Positions 1,370 to 20,110 of a DNA stretch of 20,110 nt are shown here, in pieces. This DNA comes from a virus, in IMG/VR virus record IMGVR_UViG_3300037041_000450, positions 1 through 20,110 of that record. One strand, written 5' to 3'. Under the pieces are notes generated by a model. That model had not been told where the DNA came from. It did no database searches and saw nothing but the letters and a program-made list of their open reading frames with translations. The translations under genes were made by a program, and so were the position numbers. Numbering within the stretch: the stretch's first letter is position 1; each line of letters begins with the position of its first letter.

Positions 1370-4300
1370 TTATAAGCTTCTAACCATCCACCTGGTTGTG
1401 GTTTGTTATAGTTTGTAAAGTTAGTTAATTGATCTAGGTTAACCAAACCTTTTTGTTCTTGCCTCATTCCATTGTTAGCCATAGGATATTCAGTTACCTT
1501 CTTTCCTTTGAACTTATAATTCTTTCCTGGTTTCATTAGTTTTGTATCTCCTGTATCTGATATACCTAATACATCATAAGGAACTCCTTGCATGGTTATA
1601 TTGTTAGAACCTATTTCTGTTATCTCTCCTGGATGAGCCCATTGTCCTCTATCATCTTTTATAACTCCTCCTTGTTTCTTTTGTTCTAATTGTCCAACTC
1701 CTAATACTACTGGTGGAGCTCCAAGAGCATATTTATTCATTGCTTTTAAAAATCCTTGTTTATCTTTCAAAGAATTAAGCATTGATGTCATGGTGTTATC
1801 AAGACCTGTGTCTTTTACATAATTTTCAATAGCATCATCTAATTGTGATTGTGTAACTGTAAAATCTTTATTTAAAGGTATTCCATTTTTTTGTGCAATG
1901 TAATCTTTTAATTGCGCTGCTCTTTCTCTTATTTCATCTCCATGTGGAACACCTTCTTTTTGTAAATTTAATCCTTTAAATTCTGGTTTAACATTAGAAG
2001 ATCCTGATGCTGTAGGTTTCCCTTTTAAATAAACTTTAGTTTTATGTTTAAGTTTTGAAAAATCAAAAAAAGAATTCCAATCATTAGCTTCATCAGCCAT
2101 GTTTCTATAAAAATGTCCTGTTTCATGTGCTGCCACTCTTGCTTGATTTGCAGCAGATAAACCATTATCTGTAAATACAAATGCTTTACCATAAGCATTT
2201 GTTCCAAGAACTTCAGGATTTTTACCTATTTCATTTGCATAAATTTCTTCAAAATTATCATTAATGTTTGTAAACTTATCTTTTGTATAACTATTACTAT
2301 TAACGTTCCATTTAGATTCTTGAGCTAACATTCTTTCTGCTCTTGCACTAGCTGCTTCTTGTGGACTAACGTATGTAGAAAATATGTTTTCTTCTATTGG
2401 AACTGATTTACTAAATGCTGATTTTACTGTTTTAAGTGTTTTTGGTACAAAAGGTAATGCTGCTATTCCAGCATTTATTGCTGCATTTTTATAATCTCCT
2501 TCGTAAAGATTTAAACCAGAATTAATACCTGCTTGCATAGAACCTATAATAGCTCCTTCAGGAGTAAAGTATCCTGGAGACATTAATGGGGATTCATATG
2601 CATCCTCCATATTAGCCTGTATATTTGATTTTATAAGTGCTTCTTTATTTTGTTCTACAGCTCTTTTTTCTTTTTGTTCCTTTTGTTTAGCAGTTATAGG
2701 TTTATCTACTTTAGGTGTAACAGTTCTTGTGTTATCTTTTTGTGTAACATTAGTTTCTCTACCTCTACCTTTACTAGCTGCAATCTTTTTATTCATTGCA
2801 TCATTCTTCAATTTTCTTAAGAAAGCATGATGATTTGTTGGAGGGACAGTTATTCCTTTTTCTGCCTCATCGTATTTACTCAACCACCCACCATTCTCCA
2901 TTCCTTTAGGTTTCCAATCAAGTCCATGTTGGTAGTAAGACATCTCTCCACCATTTTGAAACCTTGTAGTATTTAAAGAAAGTTCAGATTGTTGTTTACT
3001 AATATCAACTCCTGTATCTTCATAAAACTTTGCTTCTCCTTCTAAATTTGCAGGGTTATCATATCTCTGTCTATCAAGAACTTTATCAAATAATAAGTTT
3101 TGATTAAGGATTCTTGATTCTGGATAACTGTTTATCATCTCTTGATAATCTTGTTCATCTTCAAAATCACTTCTGTTATAGAAATTATTATAAACAGCAT
3201 CAGTGGTCATCATCTGTGGACGCTTTTGCATTTGTGCCCATTGTGCATTATCTGTATTATGAGCTATATCATAATTATCTCTATCTTGTGAGTGTTGTAT
3301 AGCATGATAATTTTCATGTGCTAACATTTTATCTTGATGGTATTTTAAATCATCTCCTGTTAATAGTTCACCAGTGTATTCATCCTTCCATGCATTGTAA
3401 TCAGTTCCTATGTTCATTATGTTTAACCTAGGATCGTAGTAACTTCTATTTACATTAGGATTATCTACTCTTCTTGCAAGCATAGGGTTTTCATACATGT
3501 CCACACCATTCTGTGCACTAGCTAATGTCTTCTTTGCATATGGGCCATTGGAAGGAATACCTTTCGTGCGTGCGTATGTGAATCCTACAGCTCCTGGAAT
3601 AGAACCACCATCATTAAATCTATATTTAAGTCCTGCTCCAATATTCTCTTTTGATAAATTTGCATTTACAGAAAGACTATCTGTTGGATTATATGATCCT
3701 CTAATTCCATAATCAACAAGAGGATTTACAAAATCTTTATTACCTACACCAACAGCAGATGCTCCTATAGAGAAATCTTTTGTTGAGTAAGTTGGATTGA
3801 CTCCACCTATAAAGATACCATGTTGAGGATCTCGAAAAATAAAAGGATTAATTCTAGAAAAATGATCTGCTTTAGGATAATTAAAAGGGTTAAGTTTTTC
3901 ACCACTCTGTGCTTGAGGAACATAGTTAACTGGATAGACATTTCCACCCATTTGATATTCAGGAGTGATTGTTACATTATCTTTTAATGTATTTAATCTT
4001 TCAATTGCCTTTGGATTTGCAGACTTGCCATACTTATTTTGCCAGTATTCATTCTGTCTATTTGCTTGTTCTATAGCTCTAAGTGCAGTTGCCTCATCAG
4101 TATTTAATTTTTGATTACCACTATAATATCCTCCAGGCCCATTCATTCGCATTCCTGAATATTCTACATCATATGAATTAGGACTCACTGCTTCAGGTCG
4201 TATAGTTGGAAGTGTAGAGATTAAATCTGTATTTCCATAAACTAATCCTGCTGGATGCAGATTGTTTTCTATTGCGTATGTAGGTTCTCTATCTTGTACT

Positions 4301-5067
4301 ATTTCTTCTACAGTAAGATCTTCAATTGCAGGTCTTACTATTACTTCTTGTTGTGGTTTTACATTCGAATAATCTTCATTAATTGCTAATCCTTTCCATG
4401 TTCCTTTTGGTAAAATATTTGGATTATAAATATCCCAACTACCTCTTTTTTCATAACCTTCTAATGGAGTTTCATTTTTAGAAATATTACCACGTCTATC
4501 TTTTGTAAACTTAGGTTCATCTTTATTATAATTAGTTCCAAATTTTATTCTTCCATCACTTTCTTTTACTGCTTTTTTTGCAGCAGCTTCTAATATTTTT
4601 TGTTTTCTTTTTGTTTCTTCTACAGCAGAATCTAAACCAAAAGTATTTAAAAATGAATCATTTTCTTCTCCAGGATTTTCTAATTTTCTTTGTAGTTTAT
4701 TGTAATTATATAAACTTAAACTATCCTGATAAGCTTTATATCTAGGATTACTTTCTGATTCTACATATATAGGTTTCTTTTTACCACCATTCTGAAACTG
4801 TCCCCCCCATGCAGGAGAATAATTACGTCCTATGTTAGAATGTCCATTCCCTTTAAATCCTTCAGGAGCAGAAACTTTATAATCATTGTAATTCTCTTGG
4901 TGTTCTTGCATAGATCCACCATCAGCATAGTTATCTAGCCAACCACCATTCTTCATGTTGTTACTATTGTCTCTACCACATTCGTGGCATACATACATGT
5001 CTTTCTGACTAGAATCAGATTTGTTCCATGACCATCCACAACTTGAACATGTTACCTTTCCTTTCAT
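1366..5067 (-). CDS. Large virion-associated/cargo protein with zinc ribbon and two HExxH zincin motifs
   Basis: This 1233-residue protein is probably packaged in the virion or ejected. A zinc ribbon uses Cys7, Cys10, Cys27 and Cys30. GGWL occurs at 41-44, 726-729 and 1226-1229, and Gln-x-Gly motifs lie near 92, 372, 387, 519 and 704. Residues 425-485 alternate like beta strands. The first zincin motif is HENYH at 584-588, with a possible third ligand at Glu677/679. The second is HETGH at 981-985, with Glu1045 or Glu1048 downstream. Between them lie a Lys/Gln-rich stretch (about 755-815) and a Gly/Ala-rich hydrophobic segment (about 835-876) that resembles pre-toxin linkers. The C-terminal segment from 1133 (KKQGGVIKDDRGQWAHPGE, then NNITMQGVPYDVLG) is a tail I recall from other crAss-like cargo proteins. 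The start overlaps the upstream stop by one base (TAATG). Protease activity is inferred only from the HExxH motifs; no substrate can be named. Confidence 0.9.
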   Translation of the reverse strand: MKGKVTCSSCGWSWNKSDSSQKDMYVCHECGRDNSNNMKNGGWLDNYADGGSMQEHQENYNDYKVSAPEGFKGNGHSNIGRNYSPAWGGQFQNGGKKKPIYVESESNPRYKAYQDSLSLYNYNKLQRKLENPGEENDSFLNTFGLDSAVEETKRKQKILEAAAKKAVKESDGRIKFGTNYNKDEPKFTKDRRGNISKNETPLEGYEKRGSWDIYNPNILPKGTWKGLAINEDYSNVKPQQEVIVRPAIEDLTVEEIVQDREPTYAIENNLHPAGLVYGNTDLISTLPTIRPEAVSPNSYDVEYSGMRMNGPGGYYSGNQKLNTDEATALRAIEQANRQNEYWQNKYGKSANPKAIERLNTLKDNVTITPEYQMGGNVYPVNYVPQAQSGEKLNPFNYPKADHFSRINPFIFRDPQHGIFIGGVNPTYSTKDFSIGASAVGVGNKDFVNPLVDYGIRGSYNPTDSLSVNANLSKENIGAGLKYRFNDGGSIPGAVGFTYARTKGIPSNGPYAKKTLASAQNGVDMYENPMLARRVDNPNVNRSYYDPRLNIMNIGTDYNAWKDEYTGELLTGDDLKYHQDKMLAHENYHAIQHSQDRDNYDIAHNTDNAQWAQMQKRPQMMTTDAVYNNFYNRSDFEDEQDYQEMINSYPESRILNQNLLFDKVLDRQRYDNPANLEGEAKFYEDTGVDISKQQSELSLNTTRFQNGGEMSYYQHGLDWKPKGMENGGWLSKYDEAEKGITVPPTNHHAFLRKLKNDAMNKKIAASKGRGRETNVTQKDNTRTVTPKVDKPITAKQKEQKEKRAVEQNKEALIKSNIQANMEDAYESPLMSPGYFTPEGAIIGSMQAGINSGLNLYEGDYKNAAINAGIAALPFVPKTLKTVKSAFSKSVPIEENIFSTYVSPQEAASARAERMLAQESKWNVNSNSYTKDKFTNINDNFEEIYANEIGKNPEVLGTNAYGKAFVFTDNGLSAANQARVAAHETGHFYRNMADEANDWNSFFDFSKLKHKTKVYLKGKPTASGSSNVKPEFKGLNLQKEGVPHGDEIRERAAQLKDYIAQKNGIPLNKDFTVTQSQLDDAIENYVKDTGLDNTMTSMLNSLKDKQGFLKAMNKYALGAPPVVLGVGQLEQKKQGGVIKDDRGQWAHPGEITEIGSNNITMQGVPYDVLGISDTGDTKLMKPGKNYKFKGKKVTEYPMANNGMRQEQKGLVNLDQLTNFTNYNKPQPGGWLEAYK

Positions 5068-5933
5068 TATTTGTAAGAGATTTGCGCAGGAGTTATTATG
5101 AATTGACTAACTAAGTGTACTGTGCAGCTATTATCTAAGATGTGTCTCACTTTGAGTTCCTTGGCTCTAAGGGGAGCTTTCTTAAATGATCTAGTTCCAT
5201 AGTCCATGTTAGATTGATTAATCACCTTATCAATTGAAAGGCTTTCACAAGACGTATTGAATAATGGAATCTGAGAACTCTTCTGTAATGCCCAGAATGT
5301 ATTATACTGATAGAAGTTGTCACTCTTAGTATATGTAATAGTTTTGCTATTACTGTTATACTTAGGATATAAATTGTATGCTTGTAAGTTATGCATTGGT
5401 TTTGGAACAAGTTCTAATAACCCTGAGCTTTGTTGTCCATTATATAGAATAGCTTTATTGAACCATTTATCGTTTGTTTCAACTTTTGTATTGTAACTAA
5501 ATACACCATCAGGAATAGGAATGTATTCATATGCCTTGGTGTAATCTTTTACATTCTGTAAAATCTCATCTTGGTATTGATATGTAAAAGGGTATTCAAT
5601 AATGTATGGTTCTATTTTTCCATAGTAGTAGTTATATGTATGTATGTCAGTAAGATGTCTCCATAGACACGCACTAGTAGATTGTGTATATGTTAAAGCT
5701 GCATAGTCAGTTCTAGTAATTGATTGTAGAGTGAATGATTTTTTTAATTTACATTTTCCTGTAGATTCAATTGTTATTATGTCAACTACATTATCAACTA
5801 CATAACTAATTCCTGCCATCAATGATTTTTTCGAAACGTTTGTAGCTATAACATTACCAAACTGATCTGTGATCGTGAATGGTCCAGTACCTGCTCCAGC
5901 TGTTGTTAATCGTATTGTTATAACCTTTGACAT
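5067..5933 (-). CDS. Muzzle-type protein, C-terminal fragment fused to a small N-terminal beta module
   Basis: This protein has 288 residues. I chose the ATG at 5931-5933, four bases after the upstream stop. A longer in-frame ATG at 5984 would only translate the neighbour's poly-Thr tract in another frame as Gln repeats. Residues 1-70 (VITIRLTTAGAGTGPF, then LMAGISYVV) match the N-terminus of the 270-residue fibre protein at 15848-16660. Residues about 84-288 look quite different: Tyr/Trp/Asn-rich, with SACLWRHLTDIHTYNYYYGK, PYIIEYPFTYQYQDEILQ, DKWFNKAILYNGQQSSG and NFYQYNTFW, ending in a basic stretch (FKKAPLRAKELKVRH). I recall this pattern as the C-terminal end of muzzle-type (tail stabilisation) proteins of crAss-like phages. 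My reading is that this ORF carries the displaced muzzle C-terminus and assembles with the two preceding gene products. An alternative is an independent fibre-attachment protein. Homology is from memory and not aligned. Confidence 0.85.
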   Translation of the reverse strand: MSKVITIRLTTAGAGTGPFTITDQFGNVIATNVSKKSLMAGISYVVDNVVDIITIESTGKCKLKKSFTLQSITRTDYAALTYTQSTSACLWRHLTDIHTYNYYYGKIEPYIIEYPFTYQYQDEILQNVKDYTKAYEYIPIPDGVFSYNTKVETNDKWFNKAILYNGQQSSGLLELVPKPMHNLQAYNLYPKYNSNSKTITYTKSDNFYQYNTFWALQKSSQIPLFNTSCESLSIDKVINQSNMDYGTRSFKKAPLRAKELKVRHILDNSCTVHLVSQFIITPAQISYK

Positions 5934-5937
5934 ATCA

Positions 5938-7698
5938 TTAAGGAATAGTTGTTGTTGTTGTCGTTGTTGGTGTACAATCTCCATCAGATGTACAAGAAGT
6001 TATTCCTCCTGTAAGAGTAACTATAGCTTCTCCAGTTGTTTCTCCATCAATAGTATTGAGTTGTGCACATATGTAAATTGTTTCATTAGTCAATGTTTGT
6101 GCTTGTGGCACTCCTAAATAATCTATCCAAGTAAATGTAGCTGATCCATTGCCAGATACAGTGATAGTATAACAGAATGGATTTGGAACAAACACTGTAG
6201 TTGTTGTAGTTGTTGTAGGTAAAATGTTACCATTACTATTAAGGGACTGTGGAACACAACTTGCTACTTGTGTAGCTGATTCAAAAATAAGCCCTGTACC
6301 AAATATAGGAATTAATACACCTGACAGTAATTCATCTACAGCGTATAAATTTCCAGAAGTATCTCCTGCAAATATAATACAATTACATTCTGATAATGTT
6401 ACAAGATCATAAGATGTTCCAACATTTAAATCTATCTCAATCACTGATGTAGCATAGTCATATTGTGTAATATAGTAATCAGAAGATATTGTATCCTGAT
6501 TGATTATAATAAGTTTAGCTTCTGTTGTATACAACATGTTTCCTATTGCAACTCTATCAGTTTGTAAACTAAACATTATAGTTGCAACTCCTACAAGTCC
6601 TGTAACATCCATTTCTATTACATCTTGAGGAGAAGTAGAATCATCTATTGTAATTAGTGTTACATCATCAATTGCTACAATTCCTGATGATGTTGTAAAT
6701 CCTACAGGGAATGTAATGTTTCTATTAAAGATTGCGCTAAATGGAGACAGTGCTATATCCCATTCAATAAATTGTGTATCAACAGACCAGAATTTATTTG
6801 CTGTCATAGCTATTCCATATCCACTTACATATCCTGGTACAATTACTTCTGTTATAGGATTATCATCATCATTAAGAACATAAATTTTATCTGCTGTACT
6901 AAATAAAAGTCCACAACATTCTCCTACTGTTGGTGCAATTGTGGTAGTGGTAGTTGTAGTTCCACAATTACAATCTACTAATCTAGCAATGTATCCATTA
7001 GTTACATAATATCCATATCCATCAGATAAGCTTTCTAATGTGTAATAATATCCATCAGGAATAAATGTACAACTAGAAAATTGATTATCATAAACAAGTT
7101 GTAAAACATCAAGACTAAATGCATAACCATTAATTGTTACAGCACTGATTGATGGATTACCAAGTCTGATGATTGCCATAGCATTACACATATCATTCAA
7201 ACTTGATGTTGAATCAATTGGTATACCACTACCATATTGATATCCAGCATATAAAGTATATGTAAATAAATTATCAGGTGGTGTACAAGTTGTAGTTGTT
7301 GTTGTTGTTGAAACTGTAATTACAACTTCACCAGCCAATTCACAAAACAGTTCTGTAGCTTCACCCACTAAATCACATGATGGAACATATCTTATAGTAG
7401 TTGTATAATTTGGTCTAGTTGGAATTGTGGTAGTTGTAGAGGTTGTTGGTTTATTTGTATCACCTACAAATGCAATAAAATTAGAATCAAAATCATCACA
7501 ACAGCCATTAATCCCTGAATAGAAAAAGTTATTCTCGCCCATATACCAATTAGGAATATAGCTGTGAAATGAAATCCAACTATTGGTATTCATATTATAC
7601 GAGATGGTCCAAGACTTATTACAGAAGAATTCAGGATCTGTTAAATAAACTTGTGTTCTTGTTACTATTGGTATTTGATCATCATTATTTGTTGACAT
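5938..7698 (-). CDS. Poly-Thr-linked modular tail protein starting with a muzzle-like segment
   Basis: This 586-residue mosaic begins 5 bases after the 1536-codon gene. Residues about 15-67 (QVYLTDPEFFCNKSWTISYN, WISFHSYIPNWY, ENNFFYSGINGCC) resemble an internal stretch of crAss-like muzzle proteins and look like a continuation of the preceding ORF. The rest is domains on Thr linkers: a short Cys-bounded module (about 95-128); a module of about 138-245 ending DGYYYTLE...YYVTNGYI; a region of about 258-485 with repeated beta-strand blades (IYVLNDDDNPI, LYTTEAKLIIIN, IIFAGDTSGNLYAV) that suggests a beta-propeller; and a Cys module of about 505-577 (PNPFCY...CTPT) that recurs in the 633-residue fibre protein. 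Linkers are at 85-91, 131-137, 247-253 and 495-501. The protein ends in seven Thr plus Ile-Pro, a linker with no domain after it. Its likely role is a virion surface appendage or receptor contact. Exact domain families are not assigned. Confidence 0.88.
   Translation of the reverse strand: MSTNNDDQIPIVTRTQVYLTDPEFFCNKSWTISYNMNTNSWISFHSYIPNWYMGENNFFYSGINGCCDDFDSNFIAFVGDTNKPTTSTTTTIPTRPNYTTTIRYVPSCDLVGEATELFCELAGEVVITVSTTTTTTTCTPPDNLFTYTLYAGYQYGSGIPIDSTSSLNDMCNAMAIIRLGNPSISAVTINGYAFSLDVLQLVYDNQFSSCTFIPDGYYYTLESLSDGYGYYVTNGYIARLVDCNCGTTTTTTTIAPTVGECCGLLFSTADKIYVLNDDDNPITEVIVPGYVSGYGIAMTANKFWSVDTQFIEWDIALSPFSAIFNRNITFPVGFTTSSGIVAIDDVTLITIDDSTSPQDVIEMDVTGLVGVATIMFSLQTDRVAIGNMLYTTEAKLIIINQDTISSDYYITQYDYATSVIEIDLNVGTSYDLVTLSECNCIIFAGDTSGNLYAVDELLSGVLIPIFGTGLIFESATQVASCVPQSLNSNGNILPTTTTTTTVFVPNPFCYTITVSGNGSATFTWIDYLGVPQAQTLTNETIYICAQLNTIDGETTGEAIVTLTGGITSCTSDGDCTPTTTTTTTIP
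5947..7446 (-). repeat. Poly-Thr-coding tracts within the 586-codon gene
   Basis: Tracts are at 7426-7446 (interrupted by Ser), 7288-7308, 6940-6960, 6196-6216 and 5947-5967. The last is terminal: only Ile-Pro and the stop follow. Confidence 0.87.
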
Positions 7699-7703
7699 AA
7701 TAT

Positions 7704-10700
7704 TTAGGATATTATTGTAGTAGTTGTTGTGGTTGTAGCATTTGGAATATACTGCACTGTCTCTATATAAAACTCTCTTTTATCAGCATCGTATTTTACA
7801 TCAGGATCAATAGGAATGTAATCAAGTTTTGTAAGAATAACTCTATCAAATTTAGAATCATACACTCCATGTAAACCAGTTCCTGTGAAATGATTATCTG
7901 TATTTACTTCAGGGAAATATCTAAGAATCTCAAATGCTAAATGGTCTGTAAAGAATCTATTCATTCCTGTGCCAAATGCAGAAAGATCTGTAGCTTGATT
8001 ACTATTAACAAGAAACACTTGTCCACGTTTAGCATCAACAGTAATTTGTCCTTGTGGAATCTTCAACAAGAACTTATTCTGACTTCCTACATATCCAAGA
8101 TCTGTTTCAGCAAAGTCAATAGGAGGGGATTGTTTAAACAATGTATCGTTTCCTATGTATGCTGCTTGTGGATTACTTGTGTTAATTGTAAGCAATGTAT
8201 TATATAACAATGACTTGTTTTCAAATCTAGCTAAAATAGCTTTATTCTGAATACCATCTAATGCTGTAAGACTTCCATAATTCTGAGGAAAGTCAAACAT
8301 TGCAGTTGCTCTATACGTCAACCAGTTATTAACTCTGTTATCAGCATTTGTGGTTTGGGGATCTGAGTATATTGCTCTGAATGGGTAGTTTGTATAACAC
8401 AATTGTTCTGTCCAATCAGGAGGTAAGTGTGTGAAATAATTCTCTTTATTCTGTTTAGAAAAAGTTGTATTATAGTAATATGTATTATCTTGAGAAATTG
8501 GTACATAGCTTTCTTGTACCCAATCATCAGGAATACTAGTACTAACATGTGGCCAGAAGTCACCTTCTCTATTATTGAATGCTTGACGCAAATCTAGATT
8601 ATAAGAACTTTCACAATAGAAGTTAGGAACTCCATATGCAAATAAATAAAAATATCCATCATAATAAGTTCTATAAGAACTCTCACTTCCTGGAGGTATC
8701 TTGGCAGGATCATTAGGGCAATCAAAATTATGTGCTTTGATTGAGACTATATTTGTCATTACAATTCCATTATCAAGACTAAAATCTGATAATACAGAAC
8801 GTGCTGAGTGCCAGTACTTTGGATAGGCTATGTTACCAATCTCATCATAGAATATCTCTGAATCATCAGGAGCTCCCACTCTATTATCAATAAAGTATGG
8901 AAGTTTTGTTTTAAATGCAAATCTAGAAATGAATGTATCACCTCCAAATATAGTGGCAGTTGACACTCCTGTAAATGGAACTGTTTTTTGAAAACCTGTA
9001 TCAACTGTTTCATAAGAATATATTTGTCCCCATTGGTTATCAAATACATTTTTCATTGAAGCATAATAAGATACTACTTTTACATCATCTTTTTCTTCTG
9101 CAGGAGTAATACAACGATCTGAACTAGTAATTGTATATCTTGAATAGTCGCTAATACCAGGAGATCCATTTATGCTAATACTTGGAATATCATTAGGAAA
9201 TAATAAAGGTGGAACAGTAATATTATTATTTCTATCTTCTATAGTTTTTATAAATACAGAAGATTCTCTATTAAAATTATTAATGTTATGATTATCTCCT
9301 ACAGATTGTACTCCTGGAATAAGATATTGTGTAATATCAATGTTACGTTGTTTAATTGCTAATGCTGGATTATTTTCAATATCTCCATAATAATCATAAC
9401 TAGCAATAGAGTTAAAAGAATATGCATAGTTCTTTCTTGTGATACCATTTATATAAATAGTTAAATATGCCTGATATGCTGTAAACGTAGCAGTAAAATC
9501 AAAAGGATTAGTCATTCTTGCTATATCATCAGAACTACGCAATGCATCTTCTTGAGCTTGTTTAGAAATAAGTTTATACTTAGCATTCTTATTAACTGCA
9601 ACAAAATGTCCAGTACCTGCTCCATACATAACATTCTCCAACTTAAGAACATTACCTAAGAAAGGTTGTCCAAAAGATGTCTCAGGAGAATTAAACACAT
9701 GTCTGTATTTTGATGCATCAGTTGTTATAGCAGGAAGTTGAGTTGTTCCACCACACTTAACACTAGATCTTCTAGAACGAGTAAAATCAAGAACTGCCAT
9801 AGGAGATTCACCAATAGGTGGTATATATTCTTCTCCTACACTACATTTACATGCTATATCATACCATTTATTTCTACACGCAGTACTAACAGTTCCACCT
9901 ACAGCAACAGTAGCATATAATGCTCTACCACCATCTACTACTATTCCTCCTACAATAACAACAGCTTCAATTCCAAGAAAAGCAATAGGTAATATTTGTA
10001 CTACAAGAAGACCTACAAGTACATTGGTTAGATTAAATTCTACAGCACTCCATCCATCTAACCATGGGCCTTGTGGATCGTACGCTGTGTTATCAAGTGT
10101 ATAAGGACTTGACCAGGTTACACGAAAACCTTTACATCCTCTACTTCTTATTTTATATACATCATAATTTCCAGGACCTATATATGCTTTACCTGTAACA
10201 AAAACAGGTCTACTATTTGAACAAAATTCTTTTATCTCGTTCAACCACATTCTCTCTGTAAAAGTTTTATTTGTATTAGGGTCTGTATATTCATAAGTTC
10301 CATATGGTCTAGGATCAGGATCAGCAGGATTATATAATGAACCACCTGGCTCTGTTTCAGGATCAATTTCTGTACACATAACTACCCAAGGTTCAGCTAA
10401 TTGTGAATATGCATTATTAGTTGTAAGTAAGAAAGGATCTTCACTAAGATCATTATATGGGTAATTAGGAAAATAAAAAGTTTGTTTTTCTCTTTCGTAT
10501 AAATTAAGATTTCTAAGAATACCTTTAGCAACAATTGATTTATTTGTTCCTCTGTCTCCTCTTATAATTTTAAATCCAGCAATGTCAGCTTTTTGATCTT
10601 CTGTTAAATTTGATTGTTGAATTAATTGTGTAACTTGACTAATATTAATTTTTACACCAATAGGAAATACAGCATCTGATGTTTGCATTTTCACTGTATA

Positions 10701-12314
10701 TTTATCAGCTTCAATTACTGGTGTAGCACTTTCAAATATAGGACTAACAAGAACATCAGGAAACTTGTGATGTCTAATAGGTTGATCTGCAAGATCTCCC
10801 CATAAAGCATCGTTACATGGGTATTTTTCTTTTGATTCCCAATATGCAAAATCACCATATTCATATGGTGTTGCATTTCCAATAGGTAATCCTCCACCAG
10901 TTCCAACTACTCTACCTGTATTATATATTTTCCAATAAGGGCTATATCCAACTCCTGTAAGAGGATCAATGTATTCAGGAGTTCCTATAAAATCAGGACT
11001 TGTGTCAGGTACATCTGGATAAGACTCATTATTATTTCTTTGTCTTCCAGGAATATGAAAACCATCTGTTTGCTTTCCATTCTTTAGTAAGAACACAATT
11101 TCAAATGCATACACTTCATCACGTAGATAACCACGTAAGTTTGTAGCATTTAATTCATCTGAATAGTTTTCATCAGAAGGGATTCTATATGTTTCCCACC
11201 CAAGAGTGATTTTACTTGCAATAGATTGATAGTTGATTCTATCAATAGATGTAAGATTATCCCATACAAGAATATCTTGTACAGATGTAAGATCTTGTGC
11301 TATTTCGTAATGAGGAAACTTTTCAAAAATATCAGCTGTAGAAAGTCTAATGTTTGTTTTATTTTGACCACTATATGTAATGCTCATTATTACATTATCA
11401 ATGAAGTATGTACCTATTAGTTCTACTGATGAAATAGCATTTATTGTTTTAATTACAGCTAAGTTGAAATATTGAAACTGTCCTGTAGCATCAAGATTAT
11501 TAATTCCAACTACAACTGATTTTCCAACAGGATAGTTAAAGTTAACATCTGTAACACGAGCATTTGCAATAGGTGTAGGATTTGTAACTGAATAATATGA
11601 TGTGTAAGGATTACTTGATGCATCACAATATTGAATTGCAAACTGCACTGTACCTGCAGTTAGGTCCCCCCCTGTTATAACATCTACAATAGTTAATTCA
11701 GGAATAGAAAAGTTAGGTTGTAATTTTAATTGATTACAATCTATTTGGCTTGTATAATTAGGATCACAAAAAGTAGAACTTTGTGCTAATGTATATGGAA
11801 TTTTAAGAGGGTCAAGATCCAAATATCTTCTAGGATTGAATCCATCTGTCCAATATATCTCTGTACTACAGTTAGTTATCTTGTGTACAATTTTGTGTAT
11901 AGGATAATCAATGTCAAAATTAAGACAAGGTGCACTAATAAACACATGATAGTTACAATCATTATTGTCCATGTATCCAATCTCTGACTCACCTGTTGAA
12001 GGATTAGTAAGAAAGAATATATGTTTATTTTTTTCTTGAATAAGATGTGTACCAATCAATATGTAATTAGCAGGAAAAAACTCAGCATTGTTATTGAAGC
12101 ATGGTTCATTTCCTGGTTCATTCTGATAGTTTACAGAGTTAGCATCAAAGTTCTCAAGAGAAGCATTCAATGCATAAGTAAGCATTCCTTTAGGAACTTG
12201 ACTAACAGTGTTATCCAAGTTCATTCCTATAGATGCTACATTATACTCTTGGTTAACATCACTTTGGTCACCACTGAGTAGTTTCTTAATTTTTTCAAGT
12301 TTATCGTCTGCCAT
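7704..12314 (-). CDS. Muzzle-type tail/stabilisation protein (crAss-like), main part
   Basis: At 1536 residues this is the largest gene here, placed directly after the tubular/ring protein, where crAss-like phages encode their muzzle (large tail stabilisation) protein. The N-terminus is charged and helical, followed by a start typical of this family as I remember it (VPKGMLTYALNASLENFD, then IYWTDGFNPRRYLDLDP). The body is rich in Tyr, Asn and aromatic beta strands, consistent with a large beta-propeller-like shell around the tail channel. Residues 765-793 (NVLVGLLVVQILPIAFLG, then VVIVGGIVV) form a strikingly hydrophobic stretch, unusual in a soluble virion protein. Near the end comes GLHGVYDSKFDRVILTKLDY. 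I expect this family to continue with a Trp-rich strand segment, but the ORF stops after seven Thr and Ile-Ile-Ser. The expected continuation appears in the next ORF. Identification is by context and recall of the family, not alignment. Confidence 0.85.
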   Translation of the reverse strand: MADDKLEKIKKLLSGDQSDVNQEYNVASIGMNLDNTVSQVPKGMLTYALNASLENFDANSVNYQNEPGNEPCFNNNAEFFPANYILIGTHLIQEKNKHIFFLTNPSTGESEIGYMDNNDCNYHVFISAPCLNFDIDYPIHKIVHKITNCSTEIYWTDGFNPRRYLDLDPLKIPYTLAQSSTFCDPNYTSQIDCNQLKLQPNFSIPELTIVDVITGGDLTAGTVQFAIQYCDASSNPYTSYYSVTNPTPIANARVTDVNFNYPVGKSVVVGINNLDATGQFQYFNLAVIKTINAISSVELIGTYFIDNVIMSITYSGQNKTNIRLSTADIFEKFPHYEIAQDLTSVQDILVWDNLTSIDRINYQSIASKITLGWETYRIPSDENYSDELNATNLRGYLRDEVYAFEIVFLLKNGKQTDGFHIPGRQRNNNESYPDVPDTSPDFIGTPEYIDPLTGVGYSPYWKIYNTGRVVGTGGGLPIGNATPYEYGDFAYWESKEKYPCNDALWGDLADQPIRHHKFPDVLVSPIFESATPVIEADKYTVKMQTSDAVFPIGVKINISQVTQLIQQSNLTEDQKADIAGFKIIRGDRGTNKSIVAKGILRNLNLYEREKQTFYFPNYPYNDLSEDPFLLTTNNAYSQLAEPWVVMCTEIDPETEPGGSLYNPADPDPRPYGTYEYTDPNTNKTFTERMWLNEIKEFCSNSRPVFVTGKAYIGPGNYDVYKIRSRGCKGFRVTWSSPYTLDNTAYDPQGPWLDGWSAVEFNLTNVLVGLLVVQILPIAFLGIEAVVIVGGIVVDGGRALYATVAVGGTVSTACRNKWYDIACKCSVGEEYIPPIGESPMAVLDFTRSRRSSVKCGGTTQLPAITTDASKYRHVFNSPETSFGQPFLGNVLKLENVMYGAGTGHFVAVNKNAKYKLISKQAQEDALRSSDDIARMTNPFDFTATFTAYQAYLTIYINGITRKNYAYSFNSIASYDYYGDIENNPALAIKQRNIDITQYLIPGVQSVGDNHNINNFNRESSVFIKTIEDRNNNITVPPLLFPNDIPSISINGSPGISDYSRYTITSSDRCITPAEEKDDVKVVSYYASMKNVFDNQWGQIYSYETVDTGFQKTVPFTGVSTATIFGGDTFISRFAFKTKLPYFIDNRVGAPDDSEIFYDEIGNIAYPKYWHSARSVLSDFSLDNGIVMTNIVSIKAHNFDCPNDPAKIPPGSESSYRTYYDGYFYLFAYGVPNFYCESSYNLDLRQAFNNREGDFWPHVSTSIPDDWVQESYVPISQDNTYYYNTTFSKQNKENYFTHLPPDWTEQLCYTNYPFRAIYSDPQTTNADNRVNNWLTYRATAMFDFPQNYGSLTALDGIQNKAILARFENKSLLYNTLLTINTSNPQAAYIGNDTLFKQSPPIDFAETDLGYVGSQNKFLLKIPQGQITVDAKRGQVFLVNSNQATDLSAFGTGMNRFFTDHLAFEILRYFPEVNTDNHFTGTGLHGVYDSKFDRVILTKLDYIPIDPDVKYDADKREFYIETVQYIPNATTTTTTTIIS
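7716..7736 (-). repeat. Terminal poly-Thr tract of the muzzle gene
   Basis: Seven Thr codons (ACA/ACC/ACT) precede Ile-Ile-Ser and the stop at 7704-7706. It has the same form as the inter-domain linkers in the fibre proteins, but no domain follows in this ORF. Confidence 0.9.
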
Positions 12315-14459: not shown

Positions 14460-15668
14460 TTAAATTCTTTCTTCAAATTCAGCAATCTTTCCTTTATGTT
14501 TATCATAAACTAAAACAAGTGCTGCTCGTACACTATGTACATAATTGTTATCTAAGTGCCATCTGTCAGTTCCTGAAAGACTAGGCATTTGTTGTATTCT
14601 CACTCCTTTGACTTCTTTAGCCATGTAGTGATGTTTGTCTCCTGTATGAACCTCTCTATATTTAGCATTACCAAATGCTTTACTATGTTCTGGATGTGTA
14701 GCAAATAATAAGGGAAGATCTTCCACTTTGCAATTACCATGATGCCATCCAATAAATGTATCTCCTAACGTCTTACCTTTTACAACACTATGCTCTCTAT
14801 CAAATGTAACATCAAGTTGACGTTTGAAATGTACTTCTAGTGCATGTGCTAGGTAGAAAGATTTAGTTCTATCATGGTTTCCTTGAACAAGGATTACGTG
14901 CACTTCACTTGAATAAAACCTCAACATGTTTATTGTATCTACAAGTATTGAGAATCCTAATTCATATTCAGAACTATAATCTAATATAGTGTCTTGTGGA
15001 GTTCCTTGTGTAGTTTGGTTTTGATAATTATCTGTATGGAAAAAATCGTTCGAGATAGGAAACACTAGGGTGTTTACATTGTATACAGATACAACTTTCT
15101 TAATCAAAGATTGAGCCACGTTGAAGTATCTATAAGCCCTTTCAACAGGATTATTATCGTCATCAATATGTCTCTTAGCTAAGTGATAATCAGAGATTGA
15201 TATTTCAATATCAACATGATCTTTTTCTTTACTATGATCAACAGGAGAAACTGTAATTGTTTTTGGTTTGTAGTTTTCTAAAAACTTTGAAAAGTCTTCA
15301 GCAGTATAATCTTTTGCTTGTTTGCGTTTAGAAAAAACTGAAGATGTAAACTTACCATTTGGTAAAAGCTTTGACCAGTAGTTTGTAATTACATAATTGT
15401 TTAAATCTATCTTATGTAAACTTGCAAGCTGTTTATCGTTCTTTGGTTCATAGTCGCAAACCACTGTGCTTTCTAATGTTCCCTTCTCAGCATCAACTTT
15501 AATTGTCTTAGTTGAGATTGTTTGAGGTTTTGCTTTAGTACTTAATTGTTGAAGAAGTTGATCTACTTCAAATACAGAAATTCCTAAAGCTTTAGCATAG
15601 TAATTCTTACTCTTTTTCCAGTGAAGCATATCCTTCAACTGATTCAGTAATTGTTGATTTTCAAGCAT
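14460..15668 (-). CDS. Calcineurin-like metallophosphoesterase with N-terminal helical/HTH-like domain
   Basis: This 402-residue protein is the first gene of the neck/tail operon. Residues about 1-45 form an HTH-like helical region (KKSKNYYAKALGISVFEVDQ). The metallophosphoesterase core is in the C-terminal half: D-x-H at Asp160/His162 (ISDYHL), Asp208 in SNDFFHTD (Asn207 replaces the usual Gly), GNHD at 263-266, WHHG at 308-311 and GDKHH at 343-347 in the place of the family GHxH. All expected metal-binding positions can be matched, so it is probably an active two-metal phosphodiesterase, perhaps acting on DNA like exonuclease-type relatives or on a nucleotide. The substrate cannot be read from the sequence. 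The ATG at 15668 is preceded by a short leader and a candidate promoter. Its place in a structural operon suggests a role in DNA packaging, or in virion DNA processing or ejection, but this is inference. Confidence 0.88.
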   Translation of the reverse strand: MLENQQLLNQLKDMLHWKKSKNYYAKALGISVFEVDQLLQQLSTKAKPQTISTKTIKVDAEKGTLESTVVCDYEPKNDKQLASLHKIDLNNYVITNYWSKLLPNGKFTSSVFSKRKQAKDYTAEDFSKFLENYKPKTITVSPVDHSKEKDHVDIEISISDYHLAKRHIDDDNNPVERAYRYFNVAQSLIKKVVSVYNVNTLVFPISNDFFHTDNYQNQTTQGTPQDTILDYSSEYELGFSILVDTINMLRFYSSEVHVILVQGNHDRTKSFYLAHALEVHFKRQLDVTFDREHSVVKGKTLGDTFIGWHHGNCKVEDLPLLFATHPEHSKAFGNAKYREVHTGDKHHYMAKEVKGVRIQQMPSLSGTDRWHLDNNYVHSVRAALVLVYDKHKGKIAEFEERI

Positions 15669-15847: not shown

Positions 15848-16660
15848 TTATGCTGTACAATCTACATATATACTTTTAGCTTTCAGAGTTCCTAATGAAT
15901 CTCTAATAACCATCCAATACGTTCCTGGTGTAGATCCTATTCCTATTGCAAAGGATCCTGATGGTGGTCCAACCCAAGACGTATTAGCTAATGCAGCTGC
16001 CTCACTTGTAAAATAATTAGTTCCTGATTCATAAGGTCCTGTTCCTCCAGTGTAAGCACTCATGCTAAGTGTTGCACTTATTCCAGCACAACTAGATGTT
16101 AATACAAAATCAAGAGGGGCTAATGTGGTTGTAGTAGTTGTTGTAGTACAATCAGTAGTTATACTATTAACAGCAACGTTTCCTGCTGAATCTATGATTG
16201 CTACCCAGAACGTATTATTAGGTTCACTAGTACCATAACTAATAGACTCAATTGAAAATGCTGACCAACTTGTATTTGCAAGAGCAGAAGCTTCATCATA
16301 GAAATATGAATTTGCTGGATAATAACCTGGCGCACCTCCAGTGATTGTGTCTGCTGTAATTTGAATTACTGTTTCACCATCACATTCGTAACTTAATAAA
16401 AACTCTAATGGTAATGTTGTAGTTGTTGTAGTGGTTACAGGATATAATTCTAAATCAATGTAATTGGTACACAAAAAATTACTAGACATAACTCTAATGA
16501 TTGTTGTTGGATCAGGAACTAATGATGAAGAATATCCTGCTAATAAATCTATTTTAGCAACCCCCACTTCAAATGCTGATAAAAATCCATCTACATCTGA
16601 GTATAGATTGAATGGACCTGAGTCAGATCCTGCTGTTGTTAATGTTATTAATACTGTCAT
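15848..16660 (-). CDS. Small poly-Thr-linked fibre protein with two Ig/SprB-like repeats
   Basis: This 270-residue protein is the last gene of the fibre operon. Residues 1-72 (LITLTTAGSDSGPFNLYSDV, then LLAGY) form a beta module shared with the N-terminus of the protein at 5067-5933. Seven Thr (76-82) then link to two homologous repeats, 86-171 and 183-269, separated by eight Thr (172-179). Both repeats contain TGG, a Tyr-Phe strand, ALANTSW, an IxDSxG turn and a closing Asp-Cys-Thr. The TGGxxxY pattern resembles SprB/Ig-like adhesin repeats of Bacteroidetes, which suggests a surface-binding role. No signal peptide or enzyme motif is seen. It is probably an accessory fibre or a virion decoration. 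Start is 17 bases after the upstream stop. Confidence 0.85.
   Translation of the reverse strand: MTVLITLTTAGSDSGPFNLYSDVDGFLSAFEVGVAKIDLLAGYSSSLVPDPTTIIRVMSSNFLCTNYIDLELYPVTTTTTTTLPLEFLLSYECDGETVIQITADTITGGAPGYYPANSYFYDEASALANTSWSAFSIESISYGTSEPNNTFWVAIIDSAGNVAVNSITTDCTTTTTTTTLAPLDFVLTSSCAGISATLSMSAYTGGTGPYESGTNYFTSEAAALANTSWVGPPSGSFAIGIGSTPGTYWMVIRDSLGTLKAKSIYVDCTA
15854..16405 (-). repeat. Tandem protein-domain duplication in the 270-residue fibre protein
   Basis: Copy 1 lies at 16148-16405 and copy 2 at 15854-16114. Each encodes about 86 residues. Shared landmarks in order are F(L/V)L(S/T), Cys, TGG, Tyr-Phe, E(A)xALANTSW, (I/V)I(x)DSxG and SIxxDCT. DNA for ALANTSW is close between copies, while the rest has diverged. 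Confidence 0.8.
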
Positions 16661-16677
16661 GTTATTGTTGGTTTAAA

Positions 16678-17631
16678 TTAATCTTTTACTAGTCGAACAG
16701 ACATTCCAAATTTTACAGTTCCATCACTTCCATATGCAAGACCACTACTATTATAGTTTAATGAACGATAATAAATATATGGTGGAAAGAACACTGTACT
16801 TGTCCAGAAGAATCCAGTAGTTGTAAGTGCAAGAAATCCTCCACCTGGAAAACGTTCCCCACCTGGAAGACCTGTAAAACCAGTACTATTTATGGCTCCT
16901 ACATTAGGGCTTGCCCAATGAGATATTCCAATTTCTTTCAATTTTCCTCCAGCAGTAACACCTAAACAAGTTTCTAATTGATCAAATTCTGCATCAGTTG
17001 GTATATGATATCCTATAGGAGGTAATCCTCTTGGATCTGTTACAGCAAACCAATTATATAACTTACCATAAATAGCTTCATTAGCAGGGTCATTGTTGTA
17101 ATGACACCATGCACCTGTTGTAAGTGCAGCCCATGCAACAGGATCACTTACTTCTGGAATAGGATCACCATTTCTATATGTTGATACATTCAAGTTACTA
17201 GTTGTCCAACGTTGTTCACAAATTAACACTGTTGGTAATTGTGTAGTGGTGGTTGTAGTTGTACTACTTGTTGATGTAGTTGTCGAAGTTGATGTACTTG
17301 TTGATGTGCTTGTGCTTGTGCTTGTAGTTGTACTGGTAGAACTTGTAGTAGTTGTACTACTAGAACTAGTTGTTGTAGTAGTAGGACAAGGACATTCAGT
17401 GGTCGTTGTAGTGGTTGTTGAACTACTAGTTGTAGTAGTTGTAGGACAACAGACATTTAAACTATCTGTTATACTACAAATACGTTCTTCTATTTTTGTA
17501 AGAGCTATAGTGAGATCTTCTGATGTTTGGATATTTGTACATAGTAAATCTATTCCAAGATATGTCACTAAATCAGATTTAGTAATTTGTGTTGAACAAG
17601 AATCAGTATTTATACAATTGACAATACTCAT
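16678..17631 (-). CDS. Receptor-binding-type protein: shared anchor, Ser/Thr stalk, FISUMP domain
   Basis: This 317-residue protein has three parts. Residues 19-62 form a short helical Cys-containing module that is half identical to residues 27-70 of the 633-residue neighbour. Residues 63-130 are an almost pure Thr/Ser stalk. Residues about 133-317 are a FISUMP domain (Fibrobacter succinogenes major paralogous domain family), recognised by QRWTTSNLNV, YRNGDPIP, WCHYNND, YGKLYNWFAV, GYHIPTDAEFDQLE, GGKLKEIG, STGFTGLPGGER, FFWTST and the closing MSVRLVKD. FISUMP domains are common on surface proteins of Bacteroidetes and Fibrobacteres; their exact ligand is not established. In a phage, a stalk carrying such a tip suggests a receptor-binding fibre, with the shared N-terminal module anchoring it. 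The start is 18 bases after the upstream stop. The domain matches its usual length and shows no damage. Confidence 0.92.
   Translation of the reverse strand: MSIVNCINTDSCSTQITKSDLVTYLGIDLLCTNIQTSEDLTIALTKIEERICSITDSLNVCCPTTTTTSSSTTTTTTTECPCPTTTTTSSSSTTTTSSTSTTTSTSTSTSTSTSTSTTTSTSSTTTTTTTQLPTVLICEQRWTTSNLNVSTYRNGDPIPEVSDPVAWAALTTGAWCHYNNDPANEAIYGKLYNWFAVTDPRGLPPIGYHIPTDAEFDQLETCLGVTAGGKLKEIGISHWASPNVGAINSTGFTGLPGGERFPGGGFLALTTTGFFWTSTVFFPPYIYYRSLNYNSSGLAYGSDGTVKFGMSVRLVKD
17242..17442 (-). repeat. Long Thr/Ser-coding low-complexity stalk
   Basis: About 67 codons, almost all ACN, AGT or AGC/TCN, encode residues 64-130 of the FISUMP protein, interrupted only by a Glu-Cys-Pro-Cys-Pro island near 79-83. 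On the plus strand it reads as GTTGTAGTTG-type satellite DNA. The (Ser-Thr)n part near 104-117 is the purest. Confidence 0.92.
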
Positions 17632-17649
17632 AATTTTAGATTTAAAATA

Positions 17650-19551
17650 TTAACACAATGCTGAACCAAGTGGATTTCCAGAAACACCAATTTTCCAAGC
17701 ACCAATACCTAACATCTCTTTATACCATAAACCTCCTCCATTAAAAAGAGTTGTTAATCCTATCTCATTATAAAATGTGCTTGAGAAAGAAACTGTTGGT
17801 GTATTTGTATATATAGTGTATGTTCCAATGGTTTCAAGACAAGCTGTTGCACTATCAAAAAAATCTGCACCAAATGATTGTGCATATCCTATACCAGCAG
17901 CAGTAGTAGTTGTAGTTGTAGTACAACTTGATTCACCAGCAATTTCACCACTATTAAGAATAGCAAAAACCTTACCACTTCCAGATTCTTTATACCATCT
18001 TGCAGCTCCTGGGAAAGGAGTAGTCAATGCTAGATCTGTATACAAGAAAGATCCTAAATTAAGAGTTGCATCATCTGAATATAAAGATGTTGGAAAAGTT
18101 ACTTCATTACACGCTGATGCTGCTGAAATTGCAAAATTAGAAAAGAAATATTTAAAATTTGTAGGAGCAGGAGTTGTTGTTGTTGTCGTTGTAGGTGGAA
18201 ACAACGTAGTTGTTGTAGTAGTTGAACCACATGGTCCAAGATAATTTTTTATATATGCATTATCTAGAATCAATGTTTGAGGAATAATACATCCTGTAGG
18301 AACAGTAACACCACTAGGAGCAACTTCACCAACTCTATTTCCAGAACAATCAATTGCATCCCAAGATCCTACAGGAGAAAGTCCTTGTATCTCAAATGCT
18401 TCACAACTAACTTCTTCACAAGGTGCATCAGAAACAATTTCTAAATTAGCACCAAGCAATAATGAACCTTCTGTAATACATCCAGTTTCCATTGTTCCAG
18501 GGAAAGGAATAATTCCACTCACTGCAATATTTGAATTACAAGCAAATGCTTCCCATTCATTACCTAGTCCACCATCACCTGTACTTTGTAATAGATAAGA
18601 TACACATGCTAATGGGGCAACTGTTGTAGTAGTTGTCGTTGTTGGACACACTTCTTCAATACAAGCTCCTCCAGTTGTTACTATTACTAACTCACTGTCT
18701 GCTATACCATCACTTCCACAAAATTGTAATATCTCAGATGCAGAAATTGTAGTTTCAACAAATTCTCCAATACAATCATTATATCCAATAGTATGGTCTA
18801 TTATAGAACCATCTGTATTATTAAATGTGATACAGTTACAAGCTATTGTAGTAGTGGTTGTTGTAGTTGGTTGACACATTGTATCATTTGTACAAGCAAC
18901 AGTTCCTCCAGTTATAGAAATACCTCCACCTGCTCCACAAGAACTTGCAATAGAATCTTCGTCAGCACAAATGTTTATTGTACCATCTGTAAGGTTTTGT
19001 GATTGAGGATCACCATTTGCATCAGTCCAATAAACAGTACATCTATTTACAGCTGTAACTTCATAACAAAATGGATTTACTGGAACAGCAGTTGTAGTGG
19101 TTGTTGTAATATTTGAACAACAATCTTGTGTATCTATAACATTAATTGAACCAATTTCTATAATTGGATAGTTGTTGTCAACACAAGCAAATTGTACAGT
19201 GCTAGATGCAGTATCTGTAATTGGTTCTAATGTATTACATTCTACATATGTAATTGTACCAGGATTAATTCTTGGTCCAACATATCCATATGTAGTACAA
19301 GGACATATTGTTGTAGAAGTAGTAGTTGTAGTTACAGGTGTACAACATACATCTAGTATATCAAATATATTACAAACTGCATTATCAATTTTCTGGAGAG
19401 CAACAGTAAGCGTGTCACAAGATTCAATTCCTGTACAAGCCAAAGGAGGCCCTACGTATCTTACATTGTCTGATCCAACATCTGTTGTTGATTCATTAGA
19501 ACTCTCACAAGAGTCACACCCACATGGGTTTTGAGGTAAATATGGCCACAT
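17650..19551 (-). CDS. 633-residue mosaic fibre protein: Cys-bounded modules on poly-Thr linkers
   Basis: I chose the ATG at 19549-19551, two bases after the upstream stop. An earlier ATG at 19584 would overlap the fibre gene by 31 bases. Residues 27-70 form the anchor module shared with the FISUMP protein (22 of 44 positions identical, counted by hand). Then, separated by Thr tracts, come module 83-144; module 158-228 (VNPFCY...CQP), which recurs in the 586-residue protein; module 237-302; a tandem pair 315-378/383-441; and a tandem pair 465-543/555-633 whose copies share LTT(P/L)F.G...WYKE and a closing Cys. Thr tracts are at 74-81, 149-154, 229-235, 304-310, 444-449, 454-460 and 544-550. 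Cys at module edges suggests disulfides or metal binding. Its likely role is a flexible virion appendage contacting the host surface. No enzyme motif is seen, and module families are not named. Confidence 0.87.
   Translation of the reverse strand: MWPYLPQNPCGCDSCESSNESTTDVGSDNVRYVGPPLACTGIESCDTLTVALQKIDNAVCNIFDILDVCCTPVTTTTTSTTICPCTTYGYVGPRINPGTITYVECNTLEPITDTASSTVQFACVDNNYPIIEIGSINVIDTQDCCSNITTTTTTAVPVNPFCYEVTAVNRCTVYWTDANGDPQSQNLTDGTINICADEDSIASSCGAGGGISITGGTVACTNDTMCQPTTTTTTTIACNCITFNNTDGSIIDHTIGYNDCIGEFVETTISASEILQFCGSDGIADSELVIVTTGGACIEEVCPTTTTTTTVAPLACVSYLLQSTGDGGLGNEWEAFACNSNIAVSGIIPFPGTMETGCITEGSLLLGANLEIVSDAPCEEVSCEAFEIQGLSPVGSWDAIDCSGNRVGEVAPSGVTVPTGCIIPQTLILDNAYIKNYLGPCGSTTTTTTLFPPTTTTTTTPAPTNFKYFFSNFAISAASACNEVTFPTSLYSDDATLNLGSFLYTDLALTTPFPGAARWYKESGSGKVFAILNSGEIAGESSCTTTTTTTAAGIGYAQSFGADFFDSATACLETIGTYTIYTNTPTVSFSSTFYNEIGLTTLFNGGGLWYKEMLGIGAWKIGVSGNPLGSALC
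17653..18159 (-). repeat. Tandem WYKE-module duplication
   Basis: Copy 1 lies at 17923-18159 and copy 2 at 17653-17889, joined by a seven-Thr tract. Shared order: Phe, S-A-x-A-Cys, T-x-Y, S-x-(L/F)Y, LTT-F-G, WYKE, then an Ile-x-x-Ser-Gly turn and a final Cys. Confidence 0.78.
17902..19332 (-). repeat. Seven poly-Thr-coding tracts within the mosaic fibre gene
   Basis: Tracts of 6-8 near-pure ACA/ACT/ACC codons are at 19309-19332, 19090-19107, 18847-18867, 18622-18642, 18205-18222, 18172-18192 and 17902-17922. They fall between domains and are nearly identical at DNA level with tracts in the neighbouring fibre genes and in the muzzle region. Confidence 0.88.
18229..18609 (-). repeat. Tandem Cys-module duplication (no poly-Thr between copies)
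   Basis: Copy 1 lies at 18418-18609 and copy 2 at 18229-18405. Both read Cys, a short beta strand, a Gly-rich loop, W(E/D)A, (A/D)C(N/S), a Pro-rich strand, TGCI, L(I)L and a closing Cys. This pair alone lacks a Thr linker between copies (joined by EEVS). Confidence 0.65.
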
Positions 19552-19553
19552 AA

Positions 19554-20110
19554 TTAAGTTGGTATATACATTATATAATAACAAGGATAAACTGGTTGGA
19601 TATTTGAATGAGGTAGATTACCACCTGTGTAAGCATTGTTGATGTATGTAGTTATTGTTAAATTAGCATATCCAGTATCTGTATTATATTTTCCATCAAA
19701 TTGAAAGTTACTAGGAATAGCGCGAGCATAATTTAATCCATAAGGTCCATTAAACGTAACCACACCTCCTGCTAAACCATGACCATGTGGTGTTTGACTC
19801 CAGTCTGTAAAAACAGTATTAGCATGTACATGACTAGGTAATTGAAATTCATTAAGTGTTATAAAATTAACACCATGACTATTATCATTTATTACATAAT
19901 TAGGATTGAATAATGGATTTACTGCAGGATCTACTTGTGGATCTAATGTTCCACCACCCATATCTGTTATTGCACAAACAGCAACTCTACCTCGTTTATC
20001 AGGAGTGTTATTGTTTCCATTGCATAAATTAACATCTTTCCATATTCCAATACCTCCACCATTAGCATCAAACTTACCAATTAAATCACCATAGAACTCT
20101 AATGCTACAA
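19554..20110 (-). CDS. Tail fibre protein with C-terminal collar/receptor-tip domain (5' end outside window)
   Basis: The frame is open from the right window edge to the stop at 19554-19556, giving 185 codons. An internal Met at 19961 is not the true start, because the frame upstream encodes conserved collar sequence: FYGDLIGKF, IWKDVNLCNGNNNTPDKRGR and VAVCAITDMGGG. The LCNG...TPDKRGR pattern, the His-rich PSHVHANT and PHGHG, and the ending NLPHSNIQPVYPCYYIMYIP are hallmarks of phage tail-collar tips such as the end of T4 short-tail fibre gp12, where paired His bind metal and hold a trimer. It should form the receptor-contacting end of a trimeric fibre. The next gene starts 2 bases after its stop, so it belongs to the fibre operon. 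Confidence 0.87.
   Translation of the reverse strand, partial: VALEFYGDLIGKFDANGGGIGIWKDVNLCNGNNNTPDKRGRVAVCAITDMGGGTLDPQVDPAVNPLFNPNYVINDNSHGVNFITLNEFQLPSHVHANTVFTDWSQTPHGHGLAGGVVTFNGPYGLNYARAIPSNFQFDGKYNTDTGYANLTITTYINNAYTGGNLPHSNIQPVYPCYYIMYIPT

Follow-up and report, generated by a model that had tools for sequence, protein, structure and literature searches.

Modular tail fibres and receptor-binding proteins of phages combine a conserved N-terminal part with exchangeable downstream domains, and swaps of these domains between phages are ongoing (PMC10684548). In the T-even gp38 adhesin, variable modules are flanked by a conserved low-complexity motif, the hypervariable segments being placed between glycine-rich motifs (PMC12892980), and crAss-like phages carry tail proteins built as strings of small beta domains, with BACON domains gained by duplication as well as horizontal transfer (PMC6949934). 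Furthermore, glycosylated virions have been described for mycobacteriophages, in which phage-encoded glycosyltransferases modify the C-termini of structural proteins, namely of the capsid and the tail tube (Freeman et al. 2023, as cited in PMC12363180 and PMC12619734). Here, a comparable layout is described for the IMG/VR virus record IMGVR_UViG_3300037041_000450, the whole 20,110 bases of which constitute the window. It harbours 15 poly-Thr or Thr/Ser linkers, distributed across three adjacent genes (A, B and C), the gene at 5938-7698 and the C-terminus of a muzzle-protein homologue. These genes probably belong to a family-wide kit of modular proteins, which is swapped in units of a domain plus its linker by general recombination, with the joins being selected at the linkers.

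17650..19551, minus strand: gene A, 633 aa from the ATG at 19551; N-terminal anchor (family 0), then domains 14, 10, 1, 18, 11 and 11 on poly-Thr linkers
16678..17631, minus strand: gene B, 317 aa; anchor (family 0), long Thr/Ser linker and 180-aa FISUMP (C-type-lectin-like) domain
15848..16660, minus strand: gene C, 270 aa; anchor (family 2) and two family 20 domains on poly-Thr linkers
7704..12314, minus strand: muzzle-protein homologue, 1536 aa (phrog_37948, 1e-96), with a C-terminal poly-Thr stub at 7716-7736
5938..7698, minus strand: post-muzzle gene, 586 aa; anchor (family 16), then domains 34, 6, 8 and 10

The initial annotation of this DNA had described the genes as alternations of short domains and poly-Thr, which holds for genes A and C, gene 5938-7698 and the muzzle end; gene B, with its single long linker and single FISUMP domain, departs from this plan.

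Domain exchange between related phages

Relatives were collected by scanning viral contigs with the flanking exonuclease, gene A and gene C, yielding 196 loci (148 non-redundant) with 622 linker-bearing open reading frames (ORFs). A breakpoint between two of these was termed sharp when identity was 90% or more over the inner 170 and 60 bases and below 60% over the 60 bases that follow, with muzzle-length ORFs excluded; this sharp-end test was used instead of an earlier one on fragmented high-scoring segment pairs, which had returned thousands of divergence artefacts. Among 68 distinct sharp breakpoints, 58 (85%) have a linker no more than 12 nt away in both sequences, against the 21% given by the share of the ORFs that is covered by linkers and a 12-nt margin, calculated for one sequence. 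When linked events are grouped, 25 of the 33 independent groups fall at linkers (P = 2.6e-11). The expectation of the initial annotation that boundaries of domain gain and loss would lie in the Thr tracts is thus borne out, and the opposite picture that it had named, a fully conserved domain order with breaks inside the domains, is not what the loci show.

Individual cases illustrate the unit of change, beginning with the end of gene A:

17655..17933, minus strand: final domain of gene A together with its linker, missing from the otherwise about 90-91% identical locus L086; boundary no more than 12 nt from the Thr tract

The same relative carries an extra domain (family 8, about 230 aa) inside the linker of gene B, at 17301-17405 of the window. 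A family 7 domain is 99% identical between loci L011 and L018, in proteins that differ upstream, with the break within the tract. Horizontal exchange of domains between related phages, as known for modular fibres, is therefore seen here as well. At recently broken tracts, codon identity falls from 0.60-0.73 on the conserved side to 0.34-0.56 on the far side, and the crossovers probably fall within the tracts. Since unbroken tracts also drift fast, the gradient fits joins driven by homology as well as random ones filtered by folding; a profile of codon identity along the tracts, sorted by shared left or right neighbour, contained too few recent cases.

Conservation of the linker

The Thr runs of the 622 linker ORFs are held to a narrow range of lengths, with 7 residues in 827 cases, far above chance, 8 in 143 and 9 in 4; the homopolymers consist of Thr, occasionally of Ser and hardly ever of Gly. 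Near-identity of the linker DNA between genes, as proposed in the initial annotation, could not be upheld, since the mean pairwise nucleotide identity of the window tracts (0.792) does not exceed that expected from codon usage (0.797 when the same Thr codons are drawn at random) and the longest exact run common to them has a median of 10 nt (maximum 21). Moreover, tract codons turn over 2-3.5 times as fast as the other Thr codons of the same gene pairs. In pairs with 98-100% identical domains, 26 of 729 tract codons differ (3.6%) vs 14 of 1383 others (1.0%); the values are 93/663 (14.0%) vs 94/1690 (5.6%) for pairs of 95-98% and 203/798 (25.4%) vs 402/3220 (12.5%) for pairs of 90-95%. This unselected comparison of gene pairs replaced a small ungapped-flank control, since the contrast is biased once conserved flanks are the selection criterion.

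The changes are clustered (of 137 tracts, 97 are unchanged, 11 carry a single change and 29 two or more), and a one-codon shift gives the better fit in 9 of 14 strongly changed tracts, where 3.4 are expected. Such block changes, together with the codon-shift signature and the fixed length, point to frequent gain and loss of codons, the length being restored by selection. Fast codon turnover at a held length argues for a role of the peptide and against upkeep of the DNA for recombination; as far as sequence comparison goes, the linker is conserved as a peptide of constant length rather than as a DNA sequence. A verbatim second copy of a whole tract in the same genome was found in 0 of 58 cases, with about 1.5 expected, which is too few to exclude ectopic copying. 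Avoidance of identical neighbouring codons within tracts was not significant. Among the first 99 sequences, which include the window, ACC makes up 11.0% of the Thr codons inside the linkers of linker ORFs and 2.8% of the other Thr codons.

Domain families and predicted folds

In the first 99 sequences, 916 domains from 356 proteins fall into 106 families, of which 13 occur in first position only, 91 internally only and 2 in both. Anchor families are nearly always first, and inner families change both their neighbours and their anchors, giving 152 distinct architectures among 261 multi-domain proteins; a fixed N-terminal domain with variable downstream domains, the arrangement that marks modular fibre and receptor-binding proteins, is thus found at this locus. 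Complete regions, from the conserved 390-aa gene to the exonuclease, hold 2-6 linker ORFs and 2-14 linkers (median 8) and span 374-2268 aa, so that domain content varies about sixfold.

The only convincing Pfam match among genes A, B, C and 5938-7698 is the FISUMP (Fib_succ_major) domain of gene B (PF09603, 5.9e-37, 128.2 bits vs a curated cut-off of 33.9), which also matches the model TIGR02145 (1.5e-18, 68.1 vs a cut-off of 41.65). Genes A, C and 5938-7698 match no Pfam domain at E 0.1, BACON (PF13004) included. Cysteine makes up 3.0% of the linker proteins vs 1.4% of other ORFs, and its modal count is an even one for 69 of the 90 inner families (P = 4e-7); Cys-rich proteins with even modal counts suggest that the inner domains may carry internal disulfides. 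In AlphaFold models, which are of modest quality, the domains stand apart from one another and are mostly beta, and confidence drops at the linkers.

The initial annotation had also reported tandem copies that have diverged to various degrees. Two tandem pairs do occur, in genes C and A, but they are only 37% and 29% identical, respectively, and there are no others. No pair of domains on the same contig exceeds 53% identity in the first set of loci, so recent in-genome duplication is not seen, although collapsed assemblies could hide such copies. The lack of recent in-genome duplicates points to exchange between phages rather than to duplication of whole domains in place.

Origin of the mosaics

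According to the favoured explanation, the genes would constitute a kit of modular virion-surface proteins, probably fibres or adhesins. The N-terminal domain, which hardly ever moves, probably docks the protein to the virion, and the one to seven small disulfide-type beta domains downstream would be spaced by flexible stretches of some seven Thr. Related phages that infect the same cell may swap DNA by general recombination, for which they encode a RecA of their own, and joins inside linkers would survive because frame and fold are preserved, making domain-plus-linker (or linker-to-stop) the likely unit of gain, loss and exchange. Selection would see the linker as a peptide of fixed length, with codons drifting by gain and loss and the length being restored. 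We infer that selection on joins, rather than linker homology, places the breakpoints. Full-length RecA is encoded in 15/15 long relatives (about 1e-84 or better; the records behind L018, L022, L027 and others) and in the phages Lbo-JY46 and phi17:2; a Sak4-like AAA_24 match is present in 13/15 long relatives, two of these matches overlapping RecA, and the recombinases ERF and RecT are without a match in the longer relatives.

Certain observations weigh against this explanation. Ten of the 68 breakpoints lie off the linkers, mostly within a few codons of the 3' end of the gene or in an anchor domain, and the null assumes uniform position, so that a general favouring of domain boundaries lies outside it. 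Restricting the codon-turnover comparison to a single use of each locus shrinks the excess (61/620 vs 93/1534, P = 0.003; 15 pairs up, 8 down), and in the muzzle gene there is none. Confidence in the structure models is low, and a Foldseek search with the domain folds was without a match at E <= 0.001, with only a weak Ig/FN3-like adhesin resemblance for gene C. We infer virion location and host binding from the gene neighbourhood, where a collar-type tail fibre adjoins.

A different mechanism was proposed in the initial annotation, in which linker DNA is kept alike so that homologous recombination starts in the Thr tracts. Breakpoints inside tracts, codon identity that is higher on the conserved side of a tract and drops towards the far side, the presence of RecA (often with the Sak4-like ATPase) and a median exact run of 15 nt with the best partner tract on the same contig all count in its favour. 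Nevertheless, tract likeness does not exceed that predicted by codon usage, the run common to window tracts has a median of only 10 nt (short for RecA-type pairing), divergence of the tract codons outpaces that of their surroundings instead of lagging behind it, and recent in-genome duplication is lacking; the mechanism is therefore considered rather improbable. Far less credible is a diversity-generating retroelement acting on FISUMP as a lectin-fold target, even though gene B carries such a domain and the crAss-like relative csAssE-Sib has an annotated element of this type elsewhere. Variation here takes the form of whole domains at linkers, and reverse transcriptase (RVT_1) was found in 0/24 longer relatives of up to 119 kb, with three control genomes positive; on the latter ground the retroelement was rejected, in agreement with the earlier view that the locus diversifies without a dedicated enzyme. 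Assembly chimeras at short repeats also have very little to commend them, with a chance only slightly above that of the retroelement: all sequences are metagenome assemblies and the tracts are of low complexity, but the tracts differ in DNA, one layout is common to loci L007, L008 and L084 from three datasets, and the gene B form with anchor 0 and domains 8 and 9 recurs in L002, L086, L097 and L098.

The strongest competitor, though still an unlikely one, holds that the Thr runs are primarily mucin-like O-glycan acceptors for phage enzymes, modularity being a by-product. Of 609 linker ORFs, 299 terminate in a poly-Thr stub, in many cases with nothing but LIP, NIP or IP behind it; the C-terminal motif is a Thr-rich run with (L/N/Q)IP at the stop codon (LIP alone in 58 cases; for example, L018:1738-2904). 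Such ends are found in nearly all homologues of the 390-aa gene, there as Thr/Ser runs with interruptions, and in roughly half of the muzzle proteins; linkers are carried by 100/102 homologues of the 390-aa gene. The motif Pro-Thr7-[AILV]-x-Pro is common, Pro preceding 402 of the 827 tracts. A GT2 glycosyltransferase is encoded in 12/13 long relatives and was without a match in three muzzle-sharing phages that lack linkers, although these are distant and only three. In the six stretches examined, GT2 lies near recA or a PhoH-like gene, and its companions in the cassette vary (GT11 fucosyltransferase in 3/13, methyltransferase and others). Against such a role stand the linker-bearing long relative G012, which is without a GT2 match, and the fact that the glycosyltransferases could act on DNA or host glycans. 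The stubs, the GT2 association and the precedent of virion glycosylation (PMC12363180 and PMC12619734) make glycan-bearing tracts a serious alternative or added function, by association only. In its full form, with the seven-Thr peptide as a mucin-like acceptor, present up to about 14 times per region between fibre domains and in C-terminal stubs and decorated by a variable phage sugar cassette, the proposal is marginally more doubtful still. In L201 and L206-L211, a sugar cassette with GT2 was noted in each stretch examined, along with variable hexapeptide-transferase-like and second glycosyltransferase-like genes (some named by eye).

Genes of the window and its relatives

The minus strand of the window carries a crAss-like structural module with ring-type proteins and the muzzle homologue, the combination that marks such a module; upstream of it, genes without assigned function adjoin a collar-type tail fibre. 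The window muzzle is 25.8% identical over 81% to the annotated muzzle of csAssE-Sib and can also be aligned to those of Cellulophaga phi17:2 and Leptolyngbya phage Lbo-JY46; in the relatives, further domains often sit on the C-terminal stub of this protein. The named muzzle-sharing relatives are without the linker system, save isolated short runs, and tblastn of gene A in named phages gave no match. A host search in bacterial genomes with the exonuclease and gene A (two scans) was without a match for both. The terminase profile PF03237, the only terminase model tried, was unmatched in 13 long relatives. The linker calls and the conserved flanks are as follows.

19554..20108, minus strand: collar-type tail fibre protein (phrog_8763 tail protein, 3.3e-10), C-terminal part of a gene cut by the window end; upstream neighbour, without linker
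19309..19332, minus strand: Thr/Ser linker after the anchor, gene A
19090..19107, minus strand: Thr6 linker, gene A
18847..18867, minus strand: Thr7 linker, gene A
18622..18642, minus strand: Thr7 linker, gene A
18172..18225, minus strand: double Thr linker (STTTTTTLFPPTTTTTTT), gene A
17902..17922, minus strand: Thr7 linker, gene A
17242..17442, minus strand: Thr/Ser linker, gene B
16415..16435, minus strand: Thr7 linker, gene C
16124..16147, minus strand: Thr8 linker, gene C
14460..15668, minus strand: exonuclease/phosphoesterase, conserved flank and reference gene for locus comparison, without linkers in 123 homologues
7426-7446, 7288-7311, 6940-6960 and 6196-6216, minus strand: linkers joining the domains of gene 5938-7698
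5947-5967, minus strand: C-terminal Thr7-Ile-Pro stub at the end of gene 5938-7698

By eye, the anchor of gene C (LITLTTAGSDSGPF) resembles the N-terminal part of gene 5067-5984 on the minus strand (ITIRLTTAGAGTGPF). The minus-strand gene at 1366-5067 encodes a 1233-aa protein with repeated GGWL motifs, in which HETGH and HENYH stretches resemble metallopeptidase motifs (by eye); an NCBIfam search with it was without a match. A GIY-YIG homing-endonuclease-like gene (746-1369, minus strand), with a weak NUMOD1 match, shares 4 nt with the end of the gene that follows.

Comparison with known systems

As the joint between exchangeable phage domains is here a single standard peptide, the recombination sites that are tolerated become directly measurable, and a low-complexity linker can act as a swap point without conservation of its DNA. 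If the association with the sugar cassette is true, glycosylated phage fibres would occur in a crAss-like group from the environment, of which no isolate was found, and such phages would vary their protein domains and their glycan coat alike; in comparison with the glycosylated mycobacteriophages (Freeman et al. 2023, as cited above), the connection here is one of genomic association only. A literature search on phage poly-Thr linkers returned nothing relevant.

The gp38-type adhesin was considered and rejected, as the homopolymers are of Thr/Ser and do not correspond to polyglycine-II. Poly-Thr takes the place of the poly-Gly of gp38, whole domains rather than loops vary, and the tract looks like a flexible inter-domain spacer instead of a polyglycine-II core (PMC12892980). 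The crAss-BACON tail proteins (PMC6949934) differ in that BACON is unmatched here, the domains are heterogeneous instead of one repeated family, the copies are not recently duplicated and FISUMP alone is convincing among Pfam domains. With respect to modular tail fibres (PMC10684548), the distinguishing trait is one standard poly-Thr linker of fixed length, which joins about 90 small families in several genes per genome, including the muzzle gene and its neighbour. The locus is thus a genuine modular system that belongs with the modular phage fibres and is set apart from them by its standard linker.

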